In this document: piece by piece, positions 3,557 through 21,537 of the stretch
Numbering within the stretch: position 1 is the stretch's first letter
Layout: each line of letters opens with the position of its first letter
Source: a virus
Strand: one strand, 5' to 3'
Length of the DNA stretch: 22,706 nucleotides
Virus record (IMG/VR): IMGVR_UViG_3300030116_002614
Coordinates: 1-22,706 of that record
Program-made: the position numbers and the translations under genes
Notes under the pieces: generated by a model
The model's input: the letters and a program-made list of their open reading frames with translations, nothing else
Database searches by the model: none
What the model was told of the DNA's origin: nothing

Positions 3557-3633
3557 TGTTCTCCTTCCTTTTCTATATCATCAATCAACTCTGCCTTGCA
3601 ATTGCTGCAATGCCAGTTTTTCTTTTGGCTCAT
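3553..3633 (-). CDS. 26-aa CxxC microprotein
   Basis: The ATG at 3633 has AAGGAAGG about 6 nt upstream, and the stop overlaps the next ATG as ATGA. The peptide begins MSQKKNWHCSNCKAELIDD, a single C-x2-C knuckle with an adjacent His, too short for a full zinc ribbon unless it dimerises. An in-frame ATG at 3663 would add ten residues but has no ribosome-binding site and lies inside a promoter-like element. A leader peptide for the 199-aa gene is the alternative reading. Confidence 0.45.
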   Translation of the reverse strand: MSQKKNWHCSNCKAELIDDIEKEGEQ

Positions 3634-3651
3634 TGTTTTCCTTCCTTCTCT

Positions 3652-3694
3652 TTTATTATACATACTCTGTGTAATATGGTAACACTTTTATAAA
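3652..3694 (-). promoter_or_regulatory. Internal leftward promoter, copy 2 of the early element
   Basis: Reading leftward: TTTATAAA (3694-3687), TGTTACCAT (about 3684-3676), AGTATG (3666-3661) and TATAATAAA (3660-3652). The same blocks occur in the same order in front of the kinase gene. A start 7 nt after TATAAT would give a leader of roughly 15 nt that holds little more than the GGAAGG site of the 26-aa ORF. This would re-start transcription in the middle of the operon. Confidence 0.55.
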
Positions 3695-5233: not shown

Positions 5234-5836
5234 TTATTTTCTCATTAACTTATTTACTGAATATCCGATAAACTTTTTAATGAATCTGGATTTTACGGAT
5301 TCATAACCCGAAACTATTTCTAATTCAATGGCCCCAGCTGCTGCCATGAATTTAAGATTCTCTGCAGTTGCTACGGTACCGGCATAATCAAGGGCTACTA
5401 CTGACAACTTCATGGCTCTGCTGCTTGTCTTATTTCTTCTGTAAACATTTAGTAAGCAGCTTGCCAATGAGTTTTCAACATAGACAAACTTAACGGCCAG
5501 ACCAGCATCCAAACCATTCTTAATGTGATTCTGTACCTTGACCCAATCCTTCCCCCTATTATCAAATAAAACTGAATCGGCTTTGTATCTTGCTAAAAAT
5601 GTTTCGGGGTCATTGTAATAACTGGCTAGTAAATCTTTACTTAACTGGCTGGCTGACGGATGCAGCTGCTCATTAGTTTCAGCATCTAAATCTTTAAATG
5701 AATTTAAAGCTAGCTTTATTTTATCTGGGTCAATCACGAATGAATTATCTCTGGCCGCAAACTTTTCTGCGCGGCTGGATTTACCGGAACCAGATGCCCC
5801 GATTACAAACGTAATTTTTCTTTGCTCAATTTTCAT
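5234..5836 (-). CDS. P-loop kinase of the polynucleotide kinase/zeta-toxin type
   Basis: I choose the ATG at 5836 (200 aa). The ATG 18 nt upstream lies within a promoter element, and a TATAAT box ends 7 nt before 5836. Residues 13-21 are a Walker A loop, GASGSGKSS. VIDPDKIKLALN (34-45) matches the substrate-side Asp block of zeta-toxin and polynucleotide-kinase-like ATPases. A VLFDNR strand near 90 and a FVYVENSL strand near 118 followed by VYRRNKTSSR (lid Arg residues) complete the pattern. Family members phosphorylate nucleic-acid ends or small substrates, and phage copies often repair RNA or DNA ends. The gene is first in the leftward operon. Its bases are visibly richer in G+C than those of neighbours. 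Confidence 0.75.
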   Translation of the reverse strand: MKIEQRKITFVIGASGSGKSSRAEKFAARDNSFVIDPDKIKLALNSFKDLDAETNEQLHPSASQLSKDLLASYYNDPETFLARYKADSVLFDNRGKDWVKVQNHIKNGLDAGLAVKFVYVENSLASCLLNVYRRNKTSSRAMKLSVVALDYAGTVATAENLKFMAAAGAIELEIVSGYESVKSRFIKKFIGYSVNKLMRK

Positions 5837-5885
5837 ATACTTTATTATAGGCATACTTTTGTAACTAATGGTAACAATTTATAAA
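5837..5885 (-). promoter_or_regulatory. Main leftward early promoter, copy 1, with leaderless start
   Basis: Reading leftward: TTTATAAA (5885-5878), TTGTTACCAT, then GTTACAAAAGTATG, then TATAATAAA (5849-5841), then ATG at 5836. GTTAC occurs twice 10 bp apart, one helical turn, as expected for a protein-bound repeat. The predicted RNA start coincides with the ATG, so the kinase mRNA would have no leader. No ribosome-binding site is present. Confidence 0.6.
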
Positions 5886-5910
5886 AAATATTATTTTTAT
5901 GTAACCTTCT

Positions 5911-6021
5911 TTATTTCTTGCAGTCTGTTACTTTTGTACTCTTCATATATAAATTACTAGTGACAAGTTTTCTGATTAGATTGCTATCAATCCGTTTCAA
6001 TCTAGGCCATGCCATATTCAT
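5911..6021 (-). CDS. Possible 36-aa basic microprotein
   Basis: From ATG 6021 the frame gives a basic peptide beginning MNMAWPRLKRIDSNLIRKL. No ribosome-binding site is present. An ACCCCTATAT box lies 12-20 nt upstream, like the one in front of the Cys-rich ORF at 6246-6392. The sequence could equally be non-coding. It is listed because of the shared box and the directly following kinase promoter. Confidence 0.25.
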   Translation of the reverse strand: MNMAWPRLKRIDSNLIRKLVTSNLYMKSTKVTDCKK

Positions 6022-6104
6022 TTTTAAAAAAAATATAGGGGTAATTTTGCAGCTGCTTTTATATGCAGTAAAACTAGGCTTTTTTTTCTAAAAGGCTTAT
6101 TTTA

Positions 6105-6132
6105 TTGACGTGCTTGCGCAACATAATATACC
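6105..6132 (+). promoter_or_regulatory. Possible rightward promoter
   Basis: TTGACG (6105-6110), then 16 bases, then TATACC (6127-6132). No convincing ORF follows rightward for several hundred bases, so if active it would make a leader or an antisense RNA through the control region. Confidence 0.25.
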
Positions 6133-6220
6133 TTATAGGACAAACAAACGGGAATGTAAATTTGCGTGATGGGTATTCGTATTCGTAACAACATATTGTG
6201 TTATTGCCAATTTAATACTA

Positions 6221-6254
6221 TATAATGTGTATCTGTAAAGATATACTATATCTT
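6221..6254 (+). promoter_or_regulatory. TATAAT box with adjacent perfect palindrome (operator candidate)
   Basis: ACTATATAATG holds a consensus -10 at 6221-6226, with a weak TGTGTT 17 bp upstream. The palindrome AAGATATA-C-TATATCTT (arms 6238-6245 and 6247-6254) lies 12 bp downstream, just beyond the predicted RNA start. That is a usual place for an operator. Repressor unknown. One of the operon's HTH proteins or the zinc-motif proteins would be candidates. Confidence 0.4.
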
Positions 6255-6392
6255 GTGTCTGTTAATTGTTTTTGTAGATAAACTACACACATTAGGAGAA
6301 CTATCACAATAAAAGTTAGTATCATTTATTGATTTAAGTTTTCTTTTACATTCTTTGCATCTCATGAATAATGTAATTTTATAGGGGGTCAT
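6246..6392 (-). CDS. Cys-rich zinc-ribbon-like microprotein
   Basis: The frame from ATG 6392 encodes 48 aa with C12-x2-C15 and C29-x6-C36, a typical four-Cys zinc ribbon pattern (core begins RCKECKRKLKSINDTNFYC). A second in-frame ATG at 6365 would give 39 aa starting directly before the first Cys pair. It is favoured by a CCCCCTATAAA box about 12 nt upstream. No Shine-Dalgarno is seen for either start. The C-terminus runs into the palindrome at 6238-6254. It could be a small DNA-binding regulator encoded in the control region. Confidence 0.45.
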   Translation of the reverse strand: MTPYKITLFMRCKECKRKLKSINDTNFYCDSSPNVCSLSTKTINRHKI

Positions 6393-6625
6393 TTTGAATA
6401 TAGCGGGCTATTTTTTTTTATATTTTTTATTTTGAACTAGGATGTTTTGCTAGACCTTGGGTACCTTACTTGTCTTTCTAGTTGGTCATGCTGGCTGCAT
6501 GGTAAGGCTTTTGTACTCCCGATGTCCCCTTTACCTGTATCTTGCTACTATCTCCATGTTGTTTGTGCGATTAAACTCTACTAGAAATTTTCCTAACTTA
6601 CAATTCAGAGAAAAAAAATTTTTTT
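6393..6625. other. Non-coding control segment with compound hairpin
   Basis: I find no supportable gene here. It holds ATAG-CGGG-CTAT followed by nine T (about 6401-6419), a weak rightward terminator candidate. It also holds a compound hairpin in which CCTTAC (6464-6469) and CATGC (6487-6491) both pair with one continuous strand GCATGGTAAGG (6497-6507). This leaves a 5-nt loop and a 17-nt bulge. At the right end is A8T9 (6611-6627), directly after the stop of the leftward gene. Confidence 0.4.
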
Positions 6626-6832
6626 TTAGCCCAGGGGTTTTTGTTTTGTTTCATCAACATACTTGCCTTTGATTCTTGGATAAGATTTAGGTTTGTGTTT
6701 ATAACAATATTTGTATTTATTATATTGAGATAAAATAGTAGTGCATGCAGAATCAACGCAGGTCCGATTCTTTTGGTACTGCGCATTCCGTTTGGAATTA
6801 GGGTACTTGTTACCCGAAATGTATTCTGCCAT
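6626..6832 (-). CDS. Small zinc-finger protein (Cx4C...CxxH)
   Basis: This 68-aa protein is strongly basic. C25-x4-C30, then TTILSQYNKYKY, then C43-x2-H46 forms a clear zinc-binding module. The central Leu-Ser-x-Tyr-Asn is a motif I know from small bacterial and phage zinc-finger proteins. The rest is Lys/Tyr/Asn-rich and probably touches nucleic acid. The ATG at 6832 follows TATAAT (6844-6839) by 6 bases and has no ribosome-binding site, so the mRNA is likely leaderless. It diverges from the late operon with only 25 bases between the two ATGs, which makes it a natural candidate for control of the late promoter lying inside its own 5' end. Confidence 0.65.
   Translation of the reverse strand: MAEYISGNKYPNSKRNAQYQKNRTCVDSACTTILSQYNKYKYCYKHKPKSYPRIKGKYVDETKQKPLG
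6798..6818. promoter_or_regulatory. Inverted repeat over late promoter -35 (operator candidate)
   Basis: GGGTA-CTTGT-TACCC (6801-6815), extended by TT/AA two bases out on each side with one mismatch. It covers the -35 hexamer of the late promoter and includes TTGTTACC, the same octamer seen in the main early promoter. A bound protein would block or recruit polymerase here. Confidence 0.45.
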
Positions 6833-7887: not shown

Positions 7888-7967
7888 TTCTTGATACATT
7901 CATCTTAGATGACTTAGATGACGAATTGACGCAAGAAGAAATAGATAACTACAATGGCAAATCTTAA
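7884..7967 (+). CDS. 27-aa acidic microORF overlapping TerL start
   Basis: ATGA overlaps the preceding stop, and its last 14 bases overlap the terminase start. The peptide MILDTFILDDLDDELTQEE plus eight residues is strongly acidic, in contrast to its basic neighbours. It may only hand ribosomes on to the terminase gene, or it may neutralise the basic peptides. Low certainty. Confidence 0.35.
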   Translation: MILDTFILDDLDDELTQEEIDNYNGKS

Positions 7968-9846
7968 AACAGTTAAGTGTCCACATTGTGGTGATAAATT
8001 TAAACAAGCACATGGCAGACAAAAGTATTGCAAAATACAATGTACTAAAGCTGCAAACGCCAGGACACGAACTGCAGAAAAAAAAGAACAAGAAAAATTA
8101 CAAACACCTAACAACAGAGCGAACCGTGGAGAACATTATTTATATTTTGTAGAGAATTATGCAGAAGAGATTGACGAAGGTTTACTTACACAAAAATTTG
8201 TAGCAGAAGATATAGGAGTTGACCAGAGTGTTGTAGCAAGGATGATGCTTGCTTACAAAGAAGATAAAGCAAAACTTGCAGCAAGAGAAAACTGGGATAT
8301 ACCGGAAGAGGCTAAAGATTCTTTAAAATCTTTTAAAAAATTTAGAGATAGATACTTCTTAACAGAAACTGGGCAACAATACGAAACAGCTAAGTTTCAC
8401 AAAAACTGGATAAAAAATATTCTAAAAGCTATTGACAAAGGTGAACAGCTTATGATTCTATCACCACCACGACACGGTAAAACAGATTTACTTACACACT
8501 TTGCTGTATGGCAGATATGTCAAAATCCAAACATAAGGGTTATGTGGGTAGGTGGTAATGAAGATATTGCAAAAAACTCTGTAGGTGCAGTGCTTGACCA
8601 TTTAGAGAATAACGAAAAACTAATAGAAGATTTTTGTGGACCAGGAGAAACTTTTAAACCAAAAAGCAGAACAGGTAAAACTTGGAGTTCTGGACAATTT
8701 ACTGTAAAAACTAGAACCGTAACTGGTATCAAATCACCGACTATGGTGGCTGTAGGCAAAGGTGGCAAGATACTATCACGTGACTGTGATTTAATTATTG
8801 CAGATGATATTGAGGACCACGGTACAACTGTGCAGCCTAGTTCACGTGAACAAACAAAACGATGGTGGACTACAACATTGTCATCACGTAAAGAGGAACA
8901 TACAGCAATTGTTGTCATAGGTTCAAGACAACATCCAGATGATTTGTATAACTCTTTGATTGACAATGATGAATGGGAGAAAATAGTAGAATCAGCTCAT
9001 AGCTTAGATATTCCTATTGATAGTGGTGAACCAAAAGACCATACAAAACACATGTTATGGTCATCAAAAAGAAGTTATAAGTGGCTCATGGCACAAAGGA
9101 GAAATGCCGAAACAACAGGTGGTCTTGCGATATTTGAAATGGTTTACTTAAACAGACCTTTTTCAGAAGGTTTACAAATGTTTAAAGTAGATTCTTTAGA
9201 TGCAGCAAGAGATGATTCAAGAATAGTTGGACACGTACCACCTAGAACAAGATTAATTGCTGGTCTTGACCCAGCTGCTACGGGTTACCAGGCAGCATTT
9301 TTATGGGCATACGATGTAGAAAATGGCAAACTTTACATGGTAGATATAGAAAATAAAAAAGGTGGTGGTATTCCACAAGCATTTAAGACGATAAAAGAAT
9401 GGCACAGTAAATATCAATGTTCACATTGGATAATTGAAGAGAATGGATTTCAACGTGCAATTAGACAAGATAGAGAATTAAAAGAATGGAGTTCATCACG
9501 TGGCATACATTTAGAGGGACATCAAACACAAAAAAATAAATTTGACCCATATTTCGGTGTCGGGTCCATGAGTGAACTATTTGACAAAGGCCTTGTAAAT
9601 CTTCCTTATGGTAATGCAGATTCACAAAATAAGAGTAATATATATCGTAGGCAGCTTTTGTATTTTTCAAATGCTGCTAACAAGGCAAGTAGCAAAGGAT
9701 ATAAGTCGGATATAGTTATGGCAAGTTGGTTTCCAATAAAAATTGTAAGAAGGTTACAAAAAGAATTTATTGCAGAAATGGGATATGATTACAACCCTAG
9801 CTTTGGAAACATGAACATAAGTTCTATGAATACGGCACCATGGTAA
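7954..9846 (+). CDS. terL: Terminase large subunit with N-terminal zinc and HTH modules
   Basis: This 630-aa protein is the DNA-packaging motor. Residues 9-30 form a zinc knuckle (C9, C12, C26, C30, beginning CPHCGDKFKQAHGRQKYC). Residues 78-100 look like a helix-turn-helix (LTQKFVAEDIGVDQSVVAR). The ATPase has the Walker A-like SPPRHGKT at 170-177 and Walker B LIIADDIED near 280-287. An Arg-rich coupling region follows. The RNase H-like nuclease starts at LIAGLDPAATG (434-444, Asp439), with acidic residues in IIEENG (493-498) and a late Asp at KSDIVMA (584-590). This metal triad cuts concatemers. The N-terminal 110 residues are an extension beyond a standard TerL and may do the work of the small subunit, of which no separate gene is seen. 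Confidence 0.92.
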   Translation: MANLKTVKCPHCGDKFKQAHGRQKYCKIQCTKAANARTRTAEKKEQEKLQTPNNRANRGEHYLYFVENYAEEIDEGLLTQKFVAEDIGVDQSVVARMMLAYKEDKAKLAARENWDIPEEAKDSLKSFKKFRDRYFLTETGQQYETAKFHKNWIKNILKAIDKGEQLMILSPPRHGKTDLLTHFAVWQICQNPNIRVMWVGGNEDIAKNSVGAVLDHLENNEKLIEDFCGPGETFKPKSRTGKTWSSGQFTVKTRTVTGIKSPTMVAVGKGGKILSRDCDLIIADDIEDHGTTVQPSSREQTKRWWTTTLSSRKEEHTAIVVIGSRQHPDDLYNSLIDNDEWEKIVESAHSLDIPIDSGEPKDHTKHMLWSSKRSYKWLMAQRRNAETTGGLAIFEMVYLNRPFSEGLQMFKVDSLDAARDDSRIVGHVPPRTRLIAGLDPAATGYQAAFLWAYDVENGKLYMVDIENKKGGGIPQAFKTIKEWHSKYQCSHWIIEENGFQRAIRQDRELKEWSSSRGIHLEGHQTQKNKFDPYFGVGSMSELFDKGLVNLPYGNADSQNKSNIYRRQLLYFSNAANKASSKGYKSDIVMASWFPIKIVRRLQKEFIAEMGYDYNPSFGNMNISSMNTAPW

Positions 9847-21442: not shown

Positions 21443-21537
21443 ATTGGATTACTTTTCTGGCAACAGAAGAGATATACCTTCCTTTCGTGATTACGTACTA
21501 AAAATAGTGGGTGTAAAAACCCACTATTTTATTTTTA
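21443..21537 (+). ncRNA. Putative small regulatory RNA, about 95 nt
   Basis: Bounded by a promoter-like pair at 21410-21436 and a strong terminator. The RNA would hold a first hairpin UUCUG-GCAA-CAGAA (GNRA-type tetraloop), an unpaired stretch with ACCUUCCUUUC (about 21477-21487), and the terminator hairpin. That is the typical layout of a bacterial antisense-type small RNA. The pyrimidine stretch is complementary over 6-9 bases to the GGAAGG ribosome-binding sites of leftward genes. A TTG-started frame (21444-21686) crosses the terminator and is not coding-like. The RNA is inferred, not shown. Confidence 0.4.
21501..21536 (+). terminator. Strong intrinsic terminator
   Basis: Arms AAAATAGTGGGT (21501-21512) and ACCCACTATTTT (21519-21530) match perfectly over 12 bp around the 6-nt loop GTAAAA. 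ATTTTTA follows. The A/T flanks make it symmetrical, so it may stop leftward transcripts too. Confidence 0.85.

Follow-up and report, generated by a model that had tools for sequence, protein, structure and literature searches.

T7-like phages carry many near-identical promoters on one strand, one per short gene block, and phage-encoded ECF-like sigma factors exist. Mycobacteriophage stoperators and start-associated sequences are short oriented repeats near gene starts, each a single short box. Among bacterial promoters, those read by C. glutamicum SigD have a -35 element GTAAC(A/G) and a -10 element GAT, those read by E. coli SigE have GGAAC and GTC (PMC6338062), and those of B. subtilis SigX follow tgtAACnww / CGwCww (quoted in PMC8024623).

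We analysed a 22.7-kb IMG/VR virus record (22,706 nt, the whole of which is called the window below), in which head and packaging genes, with the terminase at 7954-9846, portal and capsid, run rightward; small genes in a leftward arm encode, among other products, a single-strand annealing protein, a P-loop kinase and an HTH protein. An element occurs twice in this arm, and we put at roughly two in three the probability that both copies are early promoters of the leftward module, of a class read by host polymerase with an ECF-type sigma factor. Judged from sequence, they seem to be changed versions of the promoters of a large class, set by unrelated ocean viruses before most of their early genes and with an ancestral form that would comprise an A-tract, TGTAACC, 16-17 nt, GTCTAA(G,T), 4-5 nt and a purine start. 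This form shares the GTAAC core of the -35 and the two short boxes with the actinobacterial promoters of C. glutamicum SigD, but its -10 is GTC(TAA) rather than GAT, and it occurs in many copies and in phage genomes. Its -35 is nearly identical to that of B. subtilis SigX, including two A/T after TGTAACC, and the GTC of its -10 is held in common with E. coli SigE, whereas the first base of its -10, just before GTC, is mostly A and not C, and the hosts are unrelated. Many near-identical copies on one strand, one per short gene block, recall the promoters of T7-like phages, from which the element differs in having two boxes and in that no single-subunit polymerase was found in its carriers (a control search was also silent). 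As in the stoperators and start-associated sequences of actinobacterial phages, short oriented repeats lie near gene starts, but here each is a -35/-10 pair. Likeness to sigma70/SigA promoters lies in the TATAAT of the window and its closest relatives, which stands some 7 nt ahead of the predicted start; elsewhere in the family the box is GTCTAA, without the key A, and there is no TTGACA.

Two copies of the element in the window

An earlier note on this DNA had reported the same blocks, in the same order and at similar spacing, at two sites on the leftward strand. In the sequence of the window this is exact, with five blocks of the composite at 5885-5841(-) and again at 3694-3652(-). The features concerned are as follows.

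5841-5890 (-): copy 1, putative promoter of the kinase gene, which it adjoins in all relatives
5885-5878, 5876-5868, 5864-5860, 5857-5852 and 5849-5841 (-): blocks of copy 1, respectively TTTATAAA, TGTTACCAT, TTACA, AGTATG and TATAATAAA
5876-5870, 5849-5844, 5890-5878 and 5865-5861 (-): parts of copy 1, respectively TGTTACC (-35-like), TATAAT (-10), an A/T-rich tract and a second GTTAC
3652-3694 (-): copy 2, putative promoter heading a variable early-gene cassette, a family-matrix match conserved in relatives
3694-3687, 3684-3676, 3674-3670, 3666-3661 and 3660-3652 (-): blocks of copy 2, respectively TTTATAAA, TGTTACCAT, TTACA, AGTATG and TATAATAAA
3684-3678, 3661-3655 and 3700-3687 (-): parts of copy 2, respectively TGTTACC, GTATAAT (N16 after TGTTACC) and an A-tract
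3631-3651 (-): leader of the copy 2 transcript as predicted from sequence, with ribosome-binding site GAAGGAAGG and start ATG 3633-3631
5234-5836 (-): P-loop kinase / zeta-toxin-like ATPase behind copy 1 (Pfam Zeta_toxin, 1.1e-5)
6626-6832 (-): zinc-finger-like protein of 68 aa (C..C/C..H), upstream neighbour of the leftward module

The chance expectation for the gapped composite, calculated from base composition over both strands of the window, is about 7e-13, so five ordered blocks at similar spacing are not a chance occurrence; exact matches to TGTTACCAT in the window are confined to copies 1 and 2. TGTTACC and TATAAT are separated by 20 nt in copy 1 and 17 nt in copy 2. Scored with a family matrix built from non-redundant elements, copy 2 is the best match in the window (13.7 bits), and copy 1, in which the N20 spacing is three bases longer than in copy 2, scores below 9 bits, so that its membership of the family rests on synteny and position.

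Whether copy 1 lies outside coding sequence, as the earlier note had it, depends on the kinase start: the statement holds for ATG 5836, which is conserved in relatives, and fails for the upstream ATG 5854 of the mechanical ORF. The true start is likely ATG 5836 (MKIEQ...). The 7 nt between TATAAT and this ATG in copy 1 is a distance that would suit a housekeeping sigma. In relatives with the TGTAACC-type element the distance between the -10 box and the kinase ATG is constant, the ATG lying 34 nt from the first T with a spacer of 16 and 35 nt with a spacer of 17. As only 4-5 bases lie between the -10 and the kinase ATG, the kinase message is predicted to be leaderless or nearly so; other promoter copies are followed by a short leader with a AAGGAAGG-type ribosome-binding site. 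Transcription, we infer, would begin some 5-6 nt downstream of the -10 box (predicted ranges 5-7 nt past GTCTAA and, for the TATAAT of the window clade, 7-8 nt), with one promoter copy per short early transcription unit and with messages beginning at the start codon (the kinase) or shortly before a strong ribosome-binding site.

The ancestral form and its spread among marine phages

A terminase scan yielded 52 loci and a kinase scan 7. In the window clade (terminase 97-99% identical) both copies are present wherever contigs reach. Copy 1 always precedes the kinase and copy 2 precedes different genes in different genomes, being kept in L004, L008, L010, L041 and L147 though the gene behind it differs; a constant copy 2 with varying genes behind it indicates that the driven genes turn over faster than the promoter itself. 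Relatives with terminases 82-91% identical carry at the equivalent sites an A-tract, TGTAACC, N16-17, GTCTAA(G/T), N4-5 and a purine, and the kinase promoter of the TGTAACC-type relatives reads TGTAACC-N16/17-GTCTAA(T/G) or a close variant (CTCTAA, GTCAAA). The looser pattern TGTAACC-N16..19-TCTAA has 45 matches in the records of 11 of 16 relatives and none in a reversed-pattern control; in every match of this 16-19 spacer search across the 16 records, TGTAACC and TCTAA stood 17 or 18 nt apart. The search of related phages that the earlier note had suggested thus found the same sites kept, but showed its motif to be a local, derived form, with TGTAACC/GTCTAA elsewhere. The TATAAT box it named is a clade-specific replacement of GTCTAA, and TTTATAAA is the local form of an A-tract rather than a conserved box.

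On the loci of group A, to which the window belongs (642 kb), the family matrix found 100 sites leftward and none rightward. Conservation beyond the search pattern extends to A-tracts lying 4-8 bp and about 16 bp ahead of box 1, to a run of about four bases after box 1 that are T or A, and to TAATR after box 2. The letters of the boxes belonged to the search pattern, so that their conservation is partly built in, and the independent evidence for the element comes from the flanks, strand bias, association with gene starts and zero controls.

In the terminase tree the window clade is nested in group A among phages with TGTAACC/GTCTAA (support 91/86; several branches weak). The same changes are seen in both window copies, TGTAACC to TGTTACC and GTCTAA to TATAAT, and on these comparisons the form of the window clade is derived from the TGTAACC/GTCTAA form. 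That both copies changed in parallel suggests a shift in what recognises them, to a housekeeping sigma or to a different or altered-specificity sigma. The window clade is in this respect a natural case of promoter re-specification over several copies.

Other marine phages were brought in by an IMG/VR scan with the motif plus a ribosome-binding site and by a second one with a longer form, the latter giving 70 stretches. The element, first described in two copies, is not confined to that number in its family, where contigs of relatives and of unrelated marine phages can have as many as 19 exact copies. TGTAACC-N16/17-GTCTAA occurs exactly 19 times in contig G033, 17 in G035, 16 in G034, 10 in G043, 8 in G049, 6 in each of G037, G041 and G017, and 5 in G019, with no reversed-pattern match in any carrier contig counted. 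Among 108 distinct exact copies the spacer is 17 in 91 and 16 in 17 (the only lengths searched), and 79 of the 108 have a ribosome-binding site and start codon at most 45 nt downstream, against 4.7% of random positions. The carriers represent two virion lineages with different terminases and portals, comprising groups A/B/D3/D5-D7 and C/D1/D2. Eight copies stand before leftward genes of G008 (IMGVR_UViG_3300048063_000101). This 38,975-nt contig is terminally redundant, and because its first 1.1 kb of genes recurs at the end the genome is probably permuted and complete, with about 37.4 kb of unique sequence, although listed as linear. None of the cultivated relatives is close, the best terminase and portal matches being to Streptomyces phages (22-28%); for the major capsid protein, identity to Mycobacterium phages is about 50%.

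A further set of contigs, mostly freshwater-looking (L149-L153, L156-L158, L160-L164, L166, L170, L172-L175, L177, L179, L180), shares one conserved locus, TTTTAC TGTTACC-N17-GTATAAT before a gene starting MWT..., that resembles the window's form. The TGTTACC-N-GTATAAT of freshwater contigs was not counted among family members because each contig has in essence a single homologous locus.

A search through the text of open literature returned nothing relevant on TGTAACC as a phage promoter, which is weak evidence of novelty, and the promoter class is apparently undescribed so far. TGTAACC-N16/17-GTCTAA is a signature by which early genes, and where they start, can be recognised in abundant uncultured marine phages, and it may serve as a host-assignment marker.

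Candidate readers of the putative promoter and the probable host

The two boxes lie 23-24 bp apart, start to start, which is a -35/-10 geometry. Together with conservation, strand bias and position before leftward genes, this supports the earlier description of a dedicated early promoter, though its parts are now read differently. An ECF-type -35 (GTAAC/GGAAC) is present as TGTAACC in nearly all copies, which were selected by search, and an ECF-type -10 core (GTC/CGT, about 16-17 nt after the -35) is present in the family as GTCTAA. The window clade lacks this core, having GTATAAT in copy 2 and CTATAAT in copy 1, and both window copies contain the TAnnnT of a sigma70/SigA -10, which is absent from the TGTAACC/GTCTAA family. 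As to a TTGACA-like -35 at 16-18 nt, copy 2 offers TTACCA (4/6, at 16 nt) and copy 1 has no such pair. The -10 of the class has C where sigma70 needs A, the boxes of published ECF promoters are a closer match, and host RNA polymerase with an ECF-type sigma would most likely read TGTAACC as the -35 and GTC(TAA) as the -10.

The strongest competitor, which we nevertheless consider unlikely, is a housekeeping sigma assisted by a phage or host activator on TGTAACC/TGTTACC, the window's TATAAT being an ordinary sigma70-type -10 and GTCTAA a weak, activator-needing one. It would explain the perfect TATAAT of the window copies, and the 3-bp difference in box spacing between copies 1 and 2 would be better tolerated by an activator than by a sigma factor. 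The GTTAC repeat at 10-bp pitch that the earlier note saw in copy 1 is confirmed, and GTAACCTTTTGTAAC corresponds to it in the kinase promoters of relatives, where a second GTAAC lies one helical turn on; in the spacers of carriers a second GT[AT]AC is observed 11 times against 2.0 expected from shuffled spacers, and an inverted GGTT 26 times against 9.0. This enrichment is unneeded by a plain sigma contact, counts against the ECF reading and keeps the activator model alive; the repeats may offer an additional contact or embed a terminator in the promoter. The activator model is opposed by a spacing of just 16 or 17 nt in the 108 exact copies (the range searched, with which the 16-19 search agreed), by the C at the second -10 position, which is poor for sigma70, and by the lack of an activator gene common to carriers. 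An activator or repressor site, as first proposed, is not needed, TGTTACC being the derived TGTAACC box at the -35 position, but the box may still serve as one.

Slightly less probable again is a phage-encoded specificity factor, too diverged for Pfam, that reads the element. As many as 19 copies per contig would be in keeping with phages that have their own polymerase or sigma, and a zinc-finger protein is common to groups A and C. GTDB genomes almost lack the motif in its 20-base form (one match each in the unrelated Nitrincola, Butyrivibrio and Oceanobacillus, none of them actinobacterial and all taken as chance), which also counts against the favoured reading, and use of the promoter by host genes is putative. 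Yet Sigma70_r2 has no match in 36 records, sigma r4_2 has one sub-threshold match, in G017 only, and no protein family is common to all 10 carrier groups, the closest being the annealing protein (8/10) and a SET-like protein (7/10). The HTH protein at 1983-2219 was rejected as a universal factor, since it is absent among the leftward ORFs of promoter carrier G013. A promoter for a T7-like polymerase was also tentatively rejected, no polymerase gene having been seen or found: PF00940 (T7-type polymerase) has no match in 16 carrier contigs, a weak negative given that the control search was silent in every genome too, and G008 holds by eye no polymerase- or sigma-like gene. No recognisable regulator, sigma factor or T7-like polymerase is common to carriers of the two lineages, which implies a host factor, and we infer that an ECF-type, host-encoded sigma is the favoured reader. 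The SET-domain-like protein, small and recognised by eye (G033 36188-36568, G017 60123-60428), occurs in both virion lineages.

An operator, a stoperator-like site bound by a phage repressor, or a signal acting on RNA (processing, translation) would likewise run in one direction, in many copies and close to gene ends, and some spacers (in G033, G037, G039, G040, G041 and G049) have GGTT inverted to TGTAACC and are able to fold into hairpins whose loop is C(UUCG)G, such as AACCTCTTCGGAGGTT. A role of this kind is improbable given two boxes at promoter spacing, a non-conserved spacer, an A-tract upstream, a start codon locked to box 2 and no hairpin in most copies. An archaeal promoter with TTTATAAA as TATA box, in an archaeal host, is highly improbable and was rejected: the distance from TTTATAAA to the upstream ATG (5854) in copy 1 is indeed about 27 nt, and the start is predicted to be leaderless, but relatives have an A-tract rather than a TATA box, the AAGGAAGG ribosome-binding sites are strong and other carriers encode WhiB.

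As for the host that would supply an ECF-type sigma, the actinobacterial regulator WhiB is encoded by carriers G017, G021, G042 and G052, with none found in the window's group A. Its presence in four carriers points to actinobacteria, probably Ca. Actinomarinales. Ca. Actinomarinales have a GC content of about 32.5% and two sigma factors, and their single-cell phages carry WhiB and have 33.6-36.5% GC (PMC7771536); a metagenomic WhiB-bearing fragment, near a 35.4%-GC phage group, has been linked to Ca. Actinomarina (PMC3861242). The carriers' hosts are probably these tiny marine actinobacteria, and the assignment is extended to the window's group through the promoter held in common and its low-identity best matches to Streptomyces and Mycobacterium phages. 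We offer only tentatively, as a proposal more apt to fail than to hold, that uncultured phages of marine actinobacteria, in two or more unrelated families, drive most early genes from a common ECF-type promoter and so depend on the one alternative sigma that a two-sigma host possesses, the window clade having switched both copies of its promoter in parallel to a different sigma. This raises the testable question of whether phages of streamlined marine actinobacteria live off their host's only alternative sigma.

Other features of the window

The zinc-finger-like protein at 6626-6832(-) has a homologue in the group C phage G017 (62689-62889; phmmer 1e-11, group A against G017) and no match in Pfam. 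With C..C, LSxYN, C..H and a basic tail, and common to otherwise unrelated carriers, it is a possible regulator. Between its gene and the kinase promoter lie about 590 nt (5984-6570) that are largely non-coding and mostly 71-78% conserved in diverged relatives, more than the genes around them. A 160-nt part of this region (6410-6570, minus strand) folds, with 7 base pairs backed by two-sided changes; it has no match in Rfam and looks like an undescribed structured RNA. Inside the same otherwise non-coding region, 6246-6365(-) may be a short Cys-rich ORF (MRCKECKRKL...YC..SPxxCSL), kept in 6 window-clade genomes. A strong AT-flanked hairpin at 21495-21530(-), AAAATAGTGGGTTTTTACACCCACTATTTTT, is a likely terminator, and at its site relatives carry a lone leftward gene that has a promoter copy of its own.
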